This document shows, in pieces, positions 60,074 through 62,437 of a DNA stretch of 62,437 nt (within the stretch, counting starts at the first letter, position 1; every line of letters starts with the position of its first letter). The notes beneath the pieces are model-generated. The model worked only from the letters and a program-made list of their open reading frames with translations, was not told where the DNA came from and searched no databases. The DNA lies in the NCBI GenBank assembly GCA_002787235.1, contig PCWG01000033.1:1-62437 (forward strand). The letters are read 5' to 3'. A program made the translations under genes and the position numbers. This DNA comes from Nitrospinae bacterium CG11_big_fil_rev_8_21_14_0_20_45_15. GTDB taxonomy: Bacteria > Nitrospinota > Nitrospinia > Nitrospinales > VA-1.

Positions 60074-60187
60074 AAGAAAATTCAGGGGATTCCAGATTGC
60101 ATTTATAAAGCGCGTATTTTTTAAGTTCTCAAAGTTATAGTACAATGAAGCCAGGTTGTTCATCCTTTTGAACAGGAGCATTCACTT

Positions 60188-60676
60188 GTGAAACGCATGA
60201 TCCTCGGTTTTATCATTTTGTTTGTTTTGGGCAATGCTATCCCTGTATTGGCACTTGACGAATGGCCAAATGACAATGTGATCGGAAACAGGGATGTGAT
60301 TCCCAAAGAGCCCGGCTGGAGGGCTCCGTCTTACAGAGGCTGGGAATTATTGAGTGTTCCTGGTTTGATTTCGACTTATTACGATCTTGATCTGGATGGG
60401 AAATTGGATTACATGGTCATTAGAAAAATAATGCGCAAAGTATATTCTGCTGAAACCACTATGGAACAGGCGATTGAAATCGCGCGTTTCGATAAATTAG
60501 CTGTTTACTTTTCGACGCCTCTGATTTATTTCACCAACAAAAACCCGTTATTTTTTTGCCTGGGTGTCGATTATCGCAAGAATTGCCAAGACATTTGGGT
60601 GGACATTGCTGAAGATGGTTTGAACGGCAACGAACAACGTTATTCACTCTCGACTCCCCAACCGCATGTTCGCTAA
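60188..60676 (+). CDS. Exported hypothetical protein overlapping the NxrC-like gene
   Basis: 162 residues with a signal peptide (ending about LALDEW) and no recognised family. It contains a YDLDLDGKLDYMVIRK segment, a possible EF-hand-like loop, and two cysteines in LFFCLGVDYRKNCQD. GTG start with AGGAG 10 nt ahead. Its last codons overlap the NxrC-like start by 11 nt, so synthesis is coupled; it may be an assembly factor or small subunit for that cytochrome (inference). Confidence 0.65.
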   Translation: MKRMILGFIILFVLGNAIPVLALDEWPNDNVIGNRDVIPKEPGWRAPSYRGWELLSVPGLISTYYDLDLDGKLDYMVIRKIMRKVYSAETTMEQAIEIARFDKLAVYFSTPLIYFTNKNPLFFCLGVDYRKNCQDIWVDIAEDGLNGNEQRYSLSTPQPHVR

Positions 60677-62168
60677 AAAATCTTATTGGTTTGTTGTTAG
60701 TTTGACATTTTTTTGCTTCACATTGGCTCCAATGGAGGCAATGTCCGCTGAAAAGAATACGCTGGGTGCCACCGTTTACAAGCATATGTGCATTTACTGC
60801 CACGGTGCCGACGGTAATGGCGGCGGGAAGGCGGTGGACTATCTTTATCCCTGGCCGCGCGATTTCCGAACTGGAATTTACAAGCGTCGTTCGACGCCTT
60901 CGGGTTCCTTACCTCTTGATTCAGATATTTATAACACCATTGCCGAGGGCATATCAGGCACAGGGATGCCGGCTTGGAAAGATTCCCTGACTTCGGAAGA
61001 AATCTGGGGGGTCGTGCAGTATATCAAGGGATTCTCTGATCGTTTTCTCAACGATAAACCAGCCCTCGCAGTTCAGGTAGATCCCATTCCGCAAGCGACA
61101 CCGGAATCCATCGCGTTGGGTGAAAAGATATATAGGGAAACCCAGTGTTCAAAATGTCACGGTTCCGACCTGAAGGGGCGAGGAGAATTAGCTTATGATT
61201 TATTTGATATTTGGGACCACAAGGTTTTCGTTTACGATTTGACAAATCCCAATGCCTACAAATACGGCTTCGACCAGAAAGACATCTACCTCACCCTTAC
61301 GGCAGGGCTTGACGGAACGCCTATGAAAGCGTATACCCATTTGACCGATGAGGAAAGATGGAACCTGACGCACTACGTCCATTCGCAAATACAGGGGGAT
61401 AAATTCGAGCCGGCAGGTTTCGAAATCAGTATGAATGTGACGACCGTTGAAGGTGAGATCGATTTTGATCCAGAGAACCCGATATGGGAAAAGATTCCTG
61501 CACACGCTGTGCATACCTTGCCCCTAAGCGCACGGAATAATCCGGTCAACCGCATCAAAGTGCAAACAGCAGTCAATGATGAAGCAATCGCGTTTCGTCT
61601 GCAATGGAGCGATCCCAATCCCGACCGCAGTTCGACCCGCCATGAGGATTTCAAAGATGCTGTGGCTATAGAGTTTGCATTGGGAGATGCTGTACTGCAC
61701 AAACACGGACACAGCGAGCCATTTTTTGGCATGGGAAATCGTGCGAAGGTGGTCAATATCTGGCAATGGCGTGCCGACTGGCAAACAGAAATTGAAACAA
61801 AAAAGAAACTGGAATACGCGACAGACGGGATCGATTTAGATGTCATGATATTTGGCGGTGAAGTCAATCCCGTAGACTCCCTGAATCCATTCAGAGACGT
61901 TCCTGTCGAAGAAATGAATGCCGAAGGTTTTGGTACTTTGACACCACAACCCCAAACCAAGCAGAATATTTTAGGCAAAGGGGTATGGAAAGATGGAATT
62001 TGGACAGTGGTTTTTTACAGAACCCTGGAGACTTTGAACAAGTGGGATATTGTATTTCAGAATGAGAGACCCGTGCTCATCGCTTTTGCAATTTGGGACG
62101 GTTCCAATCAGGATCGTAACGGACGCAAAGTGATTTCCATGTGGCAGAAACTTGAAATGCCGAATTGA
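60666..62168 (+). CDS. Diheme cytochrome c with EB_dh domain, nitrite oxidoreductase gamma (NxrC)-like
   Basis: 500 residues. A signal peptide (to about 28) precedes two c-type domains, CIYCH (42-46, Met101) and CSKCH (161-165, Met220), then from about 255 an ethylbenzene-dehydrogenase-gamma-like heme-b domain with PFFGMGNRAKVVNIWQWRADWQ (probable Met356 ligand). This architecture is proposed for gamma subunits of Nitrospina/Nitrospira nitrite oxidoreductase and occurs in other DMSO-reductase type II systems. Alpha and beta subunit genes are not in the window, so the role is a candidate only. Confidence 0.75.
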   Translation: MFAKKSYWFVVSLTFFCFTLAPMEAMSAEKNTLGATVYKHMCIYCHGADGNGGGKAVDYLYPWPRDFRTGIYKRRSTPSGSLPLDSDIYNTIAEGISGTGMPAWKDSLTSEEIWGVVQYIKGFSDRFLNDKPALAVQVDPIPQATPESIALGEKIYRETQCSKCHGSDLKGRGELAYDLFDIWDHKVFVYDLTNPNAYKYGFDQKDIYLTLTAGLDGTPMKAYTHLTDEERWNLTHYVHSQIQGDKFEPAGFEISMNVTTVEGEIDFDPENPIWEKIPAHAVHTLPLSARNNPVNRIKVQTAVNDEAIAFRLQWSDPNPDRSSTRHEDFKDAVAIEFALGDAVLHKHGHSEPFFGMGNRAKVVNIWQWRADWQTEIETKKKLEYATDGIDLDVMIFGGEVNPVDSLNPFRDVPVEEMNAEGFGTLTPQPQTKQNILGKGVWKDGIWTVVFYRTLETLNKWDIVFQNERPVLIAFAIWDGSNQDRNGRKVISMWQKLEMPN

Positions 62169-62226: not shown

Positions 62227-62437
62227 ATGTCGGAAGAAGAAATAAGCGAAGCCAGCGATGGTGAATCTACAGAGGAAGAATTTTTTCCTGCACAAAAAAT
62301 CGAAAATTTTGACGAAGTGTTGGAAGAAGATGAATTCGATGAAATTGATGAGGTAGAAGAGGAAGTCAGGCCTGAAAGAGGTGCCTATATGGTATTGGGG
62401 CAGGGAGATTTTTCCATGATCCAGGCCAACCGCGGGG
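62227..62437 (+). CDS. Start of a highly acidic protein (truncated by window end)
   Basis: The visible 70 codons begin with a run of Glu/Asp (about 24 of the first 52 residues acidic), then a more ordinary segment RGAYMVLGQGDFSMIQAN. No signal peptide is evident. A poly-G ribosome-site-like stretch precedes the ATG. The product cannot be named; it may continue as a longer protein beyond the window. It is 58 nt downstream of the NxrC-like gene. Confidence 0.55.
   Translation, partial: MSEEEISEASDGESTEEEFFPAQKIENFDEVLEEDEFDEIDEVEEEVRPERGAYMVLGQGDFSMIQANRG

Follow-up and report, generated by a model that had tools for sequence, protein, structure and literature searches.

How electrons leave the nitrite oxidoreductase (NXR) of the Nitrospinota, the ocean's main nitrite oxidisers, is an open question, on which a pair of overlapping genes in a Nitrospinales genome bears. 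The window, i.e. the whole stretch of 62,437 nucleotides that was analysed, comprises positions 1-62437 of a 255,654-base contig (C17) from a 3.37 Mb genome that is 97% complete. The first gene, P1 (60188-60676, plus strand, GTG start, 162 aa), codes for a predicted exported protein and the second, P2 (60666-62168, plus strand, ATG start, 500 aa), for a candidate NXR gamma subunit; their ORFs have exactly 11 nt in common (60666-60676). The features of the locus are as follows:

60174..60178, plus strand: Shine-Dalgarno AGGAG of P1, from the sequence (anti-Shine-Dalgarno duplex -6.6 kcal/mol)
60188..60676, plus strand: P1, exported 162-aa companion dedicated to P2, an ORF whose orthologues adjoin P2 across Nitrospinales and whose confident predicted fold has no PDB match
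60188..60256, plus strand: approximate Sec signal peptide of P1, VKRMILGFIILFVLGNAIPVLA, assigned by eye; the N-terminus of the model is of low confidence
60383..60409, plus strand: DxDxDGxxD loop of P1, probable Ca2+ site (D66, D68, D70 and D74 invariant)
60557..60586, plus strand: invariant cysteine pair C124/C133 of P1, replacing the second DxDEDG loop of the paralogues
60611..60634, plus strand: EDGLNGNE motif, invariant in P1 and its Nitrospirales relatives
60630..60632, plus strand: putative ancestral P2 start, now lost (ACG here; 50 of 52 other Nitrospinales have ATG)
60666..60676, plus strand: 11 nt in which the end of P1 and the start of P2 overlap; P2 has no Shine-Dalgarno
60666..62168, plus strand: P2, predicted periplasmic protein with diheme c and EB_dh heme b regions (alternative NxrC type)
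60666..60749, plus strand: approximate Sec signal peptide of P2, assigned by eye
60789..60803, plus strand: heme c1 site of P2, C42-I-Y-C-H46; distal ligand candidate M101 at 60966-60968
61146..61160, plus strand: heme c2 site of P2, C161-S-K-C-H165; distal ligand candidate M220 at 61323-61325
61476..62129, plus strand: EB_dh/NxrC-like heme b domain of P2
61731..61733, plus strand: predicted heme b axial ligand M356 of P2 (M155 of KsNXR-C in the alignment)
62127..62129, plus strand: predicted heme b axial ligand K488 of P2 (K305 of KsNXR-C in the alignment)
62227..62437, plus strand: NHL-repeat protein (531 aa), extending beyond the window end; third gene of a conserved block

P1 occurs in 60 of 77 genomes searched within the phylum, all from a single order (a few of these hits being distant paralogues only), and its orthologues adjoin those of P2 wherever the contig is long enough, the lone cases sitting at contig ends. 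The order P1, P2, NHL-repeat gene is kept in 25 of 26 Nitrospinales neighbourhoods compared; genes for a STAS protein, for a small membrane protein and for ABC transport of the phosphonate type are repeatedly found further upstream (the membrane and transport names rest on sequence reading), and no NXR, TorD or oxidase gene was found in any of the 26. Past the window on C17, just downstream of the block, eight Lcl_C-like genes follow one another on the minus strand, and NHL-repeat genes lie close by (L022:10475-17947). P1-P2 is an order-wide module of the Nitrospinales, and its linkage lends good support to P1 as a dedicated partner of P2.

The overlap itself is equally regular. Among the loci of named records whose contig extends far enough, the P2 frame keeps a constant register to the P1 stop in 50/50 Nitrospinales loci, and a first locus set agrees; the overlap thus exceeds chance. 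An ATG is present 47 nt before the P1 end in 50 of 52 sequences, within the AAT GAA codons of an invariant NGNE. N148 is AAT in 50/52 and E149 is GAA in 51/52, against an overall P1 usage of 60% AAT and 59% GAA, and against AAT in 35/52 at the neighbouring N146 and GAA in 40/52 at E142 (Fisher tests, 0.0002 and 0.002, uncorrected for relatedness). We read this ATG as the putative ancestral start of P2. The window's genus has ACG at this position, with an ATG 11 nt before the P1 end instead, devoid of a Shine-Dalgarno, and the 11-nt overlap is therefore a local remnant of an older 47-nt overlap. Synonymous constraint across the overlap was detected at the start codon only and not further downstream, so that the P2 residues encoded there are not conserved as such. 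The Shine-Dalgarno signal at the -47 start showed a slight gain only (median -4.4 versus a background of -2.9 kcal/mol) and is not counted as evidence. The two genes are probably translationally coupled. A frameshift fusion of P1 and P2 was set aside, as a signal peptide comes directly in P2.

By eye, the N-terminus of P1 resembles a Sec signal peptide. No family match was obtained for it in Pfam, NCBIfam, PHROGs or the PDB sequences, and a plasmid search likewise gave none. AlphaFold2 predicts a beta-rich fold with one helix (pLDDT >90 over most of residues 41-150; pTM 0.73), for which Foldseek recovered no PDB match at E <= 0.001 (best E 0.29). Profile comparisons showed that P1 is homologous to stand-alone exported proteins of the same order with two DxDxDG-type loops (hhalign 98.6%), which are encoded away from any P2-type cytochrome gene, and to a Nitrospirales family that has EDGLNGNE in common with it (97.9%). 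Members of the latter (L153, L155, L156, L160 and others) are distant, stand-alone exported relatives that end in W(I/V)D..EDGLNGNE. Relative to its paralogues P1 keeps the first loop, in which D66, D68, D70 and D74 are invariant and which probably binds Ca2+; the second loop is replaced by the invariant C124 and C133, which may form a disulfide. P1 typifies a strongly conserved uncharacterised family with distant Nitrospirales relatives, whose predicted fold is unlike any solved structure found.

P2 also begins with what, by eye, resembles a Sec signal peptide, which is followed by two cytochrome c stretches with the CxxCH motifs C42-H46 and C161-H165 and by an EB_dh domain at residues 271-488 (Pfam PF09459; E 8e-26; 91.9 bits, cut-off 33.3). 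The NCBIfam model TIGR03477 (heme b subunit) scored 127.5 bits, under its cut-off of 169.85. Both CxxCH motifs, M101 and M220 are invariant among 35 sequences, which is how His/Met ligation of the c hemes is predicted; the heme loading of P2 would follow from these sequence features. The N-terminal half matches Kustc0458 in sequence (E 1.2e-45) and by Foldseek (E 1e-16), and the C-terminal half matches KsNXR-C (7b04) and EbdC (2ivf) in both sequence and fold, the structure model being of moderate quality (mean pLDDT 66.5). A preliminary description had reported two c-type hemes and an EB_dh domain in one chain, overlapped over 11 nt by an exported protein of no known family, all of which holds; it had further called the chain an unusual electron wire, and while the architecture is present, such proteins have been known as alternative NxrC since a 2013 publication.

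The heme b ligands of KsNXR-C are Met155 and Lys305 (PMC8387239), with which M356 and K488 of P2 align. Met and Lys are retained in 8/8 P2 orthologues and 8/8 close paralogues examined; they stand at this site in the C38-type and type-3 paralogues described below, the short NxrCs, KsNXR-C and EbdC. Both are absent from the diheme protein of a bd-like oxidase cluster, the triheme protein on contig C37, Nitrospirales alternative NxrCs and class-level relatives. A tree of EB_dh domains splits the ligand-keeping from the ligand-lost proteins: the latter form a clade (100/99), the P2 group and its paralogues another (99/95), and KsNXR-C joins these at 91/90, EbdC being the outgroup, KsNXR-C and EbdC being represented by partial sequences only and some branches being long. 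Heme b is probably missing from this site in the ligand-lost alternative NxrCs. Three loci of the published alternative NxrC type (L172, L173 and L027:6118-7872) have an EB_dh-like domain and lack both ligands, so that their heme b annotation may be wrong. The ligand test thereby sorts true candidates for two c hemes plus one heme b from proteins probably devoid of heme b at the site, and P2 is likely a gamma-type protein.

The genome also encodes what such a gamma protein would serve. nxrA (C37:3-3455) and nxrB (C37:3537-4811) lie on another contig than P1-P2, together with the operon nxrC (C37:5895-6788), so that P2 would have to work in trans. This genome codes for at least six NxrC-like proteins, P2 included: C38 has a paralogue of P2 (50%), C37 has both a triheme EB_dh protein and a second short NxrC, and C7 has a diheme relative within a cytochrome bd-like cluster. 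The preliminary description was right that no alpha or beta gene is nearby, and a genome search and a phylogeny, its own proposed checks, recovered nxrA and nxrB on C37 and placed the EB_dh domain with the Kuenenia NXR gamma subunit rather than EbdC, with moderate support. Its proposal of an NXR gamma subunit is strengthened by this grouping, by both ligands and by the presence of nxrA and nxrB; it is weakened by the operon's own nxrC, by the several NxrC-like paralogues that compete for the role, and by the closest solved relative of the N-terminal half, Kustc0458, being a non-NXR protein. Its suggestion that P1 may be a dedicated assembly or stability factor agrees with the linkage as far as a dedicated partner goes, and such a factor is no likelier than a structural subunit. 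In a genome tally, many good MAGs with P1-P2 had nxrA/nxrB either broken or absent, apparently through the assembly of near-identical copies. Co-loss of NXR and P1-P2 in a single-contig genome (G057) was rejected: the record contains gap N's as well as an EB_dh gene about as large as the operon nxrC, which makes absence there uninformative.

A relative of the same family (G049) displays on one strand, with short gaps, nxrA' (1176 aa), nxrB' (427 aa), a TorD-like chaperone gene (PF02613) and a diheme EB_dh protein (contig C73). The first two products are respectively 55% and 64% identical to those of nxrA and nxrB in the window's genome, and the diheme protein is 39% identical to P2 and keeps both heme b ligands. 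Here the diheme EB_dh architecture occupies the gamma position within an operon for a type II molybdenum enzyme, and P2 may play the same gamma role in trans. The operon is NXR-like and divergent, with the gamma gene terminal (L206:2095-9696).

The close relatives of P2 tend to come with a single small exported protein, of a different kind in each pairing. Immediately upstream of the C38-type paralogue, the window's genome and three others encode an exported Lcl_C protein, and the type-3 paralogue is immediately followed by an FGE-sulfatase-type exported protein at 3/4 loci (Pfam was run for 2 of the 3 FGE cases). This pattern supports P1 as a functional companion and is compatible with a subunit and an assembly factor alike. 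At the C38-type loci (L023:8770-11240, L192:1777-4113, L193:1168-3650 and L207:5527-7908) the preceding Lcl_C protein is DUF1566-type, a protein of ~400 aa with one CxxCH usually comes after the paralogue, and the N-terminus of the latter is His/Met-rich in the window's genome. The type-3 loci (L195:1-2112, L196:826-3219 and L197:1799-4097) constitute a third diheme EB_dh group with the heme b ligands kept, the FGE-sulfatase-type gene adjoining or overlapping.

On balance, and with moderate confidence, we interpret P1-P2 as a periplasmic electron-transfer module in which gamma-type P2 docks in trans on NxrAB and P1 is an accessory subunit. P2 would be an NxrC-like gamma-type subunit extended by a diheme cytochrome c, whose EB_dh domain would bind one high-potential heme b through Met and Lys and take electrons from the last NxrB-type iron-sulfur cluster. 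Its two His/Met c hemes would pass them to downstream carriers, a separate first cytochrome being unneeded. As P2 is encoded apart from nxrAB, this docking would be in trans, with P2 in place of the soluble NxrC of the operon. P1, encoded just before P2 by the overlapping, probably translationally coupled genes, would be exported by Sec and most likely sit on P2 as a small, possibly Ca2+-binding, accessory subunit. The Lcl_C and FGE companions beside the paralogues would fit a general need of such proteins for a companion.

A less probable alternative is that P2 is a soluble, high-potential periplasmic triheme relay that does not dock on NxrB, is fed by NxrABC or another enzyme, and has P1 as a structural partner. 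The structural alignment gives its diheme half 42% identity to Kustc0458, the partner of an HAO-like enzyme, the NXR operon supplies its own NxrC, and soluble electron-transfer roles were proposed for periplasmic alternative NxrCs in the relevant passages of the 2013 genome paper (PMC3578206). However, the heme b site is strictly conserved, the NAEGFGTLT region is common to P2 and KsNXR-C, and the cis operon of G049 favours a gamma role. It is similarly doubtful that P1 is a dedicated assembly factor for P2 (in heme b insertion, disulfide handling or folding) that is absent from the mature protein. Its small size, export, position immediately before P2, invariant cysteines and strict linkage would all suit such a factor; yet it resembles no known chaperone or heme lyase, its paralogues stand alone away from P2-type cytochrome genes, and close P2 paralogues do without it and have unrelated companions. 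Ordinary operon conservation with no physical partnership is improbable, for although the downstream NHL gene, which has no evident signal peptide, is equally conserved in position, the P2 start codon is held within the P1 coding sequence across an order in a constant register, and P2 orthologues devoid of P1 occur only at contig ends.

Going beyond the electron-transfer module favoured above, we tentatively raise the possibility of a second form of NXR in Nitrospinales, in which a triheme gamma subunit and an obligate P1 of new fold would replace the soluble NxrC and offer a direct exit path from heme b to heme c, the companion-bearing gammas (with P1, Lcl_C or FGE-like proteins) being interchangeable on one NxrAB core. 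The P1-P2 pair provides a short testable list for pull-downs.

Among known systems, the diheme cytochrome Kustc0458 (6h5l chain B) resembles the N-terminal half of P2, but has no heme b domain and is the partner of an HAO-like protein. EbdC, the gamma subunit of ethylbenzene dehydrogenase (2ivf chain C), has the fold of P2 and a Met and Lys that align with M356 and K488, but no heme c, and is distant in the tree. The Kuenenia NXR gamma subunit KsNXR-C (Kustd1704, 7b04 chain C) is soluble, as P2 is predicted to be, and has the EB_dh fold, the Met/Lys ligands and the NAEGFGTLT region in common with it, whereas it has no heme c domains and its gene lies within the NXR cluster. The alt_nxrC_2 of Nitrospira moscoviensis (PMC6606698) combines a diheme c region with an NxrC-like domain as P2 does, but has a transmembrane helix and is located with a bd-like oxidase; two Nitrospirales proteins of this type have W and L at the ligand positions. 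Closest are the diheme "alternative NxrC" proteins described from Nitrospina in 2013 (PMC3578206), in a paper whose relevant passages list eight NxrC-type candidates and leave the subunit composition of NXR open. The proteins alt_NxrC1-4 of Nitrospina gracilis have there 1-3 heme c sites and a heme b domain, like P2, with 2/4 predicted to be periplasmic; one of the four is very probably the counterpart of P2, and those passages mention neither a companion gene nor a heme b ligand analysis. Thus, the P2 protein type is not new; what is new is the companion P1, with a confident predicted fold that has no PDB match, the overlapping start, the occurrence of nxrA', nxrB', TorD and a diheme gamma in one operon of a relative, and the ligand test, by which Met and Lys are kept in P2 and its close paralogues and lost in the membrane-type alternative NxrCs tested.
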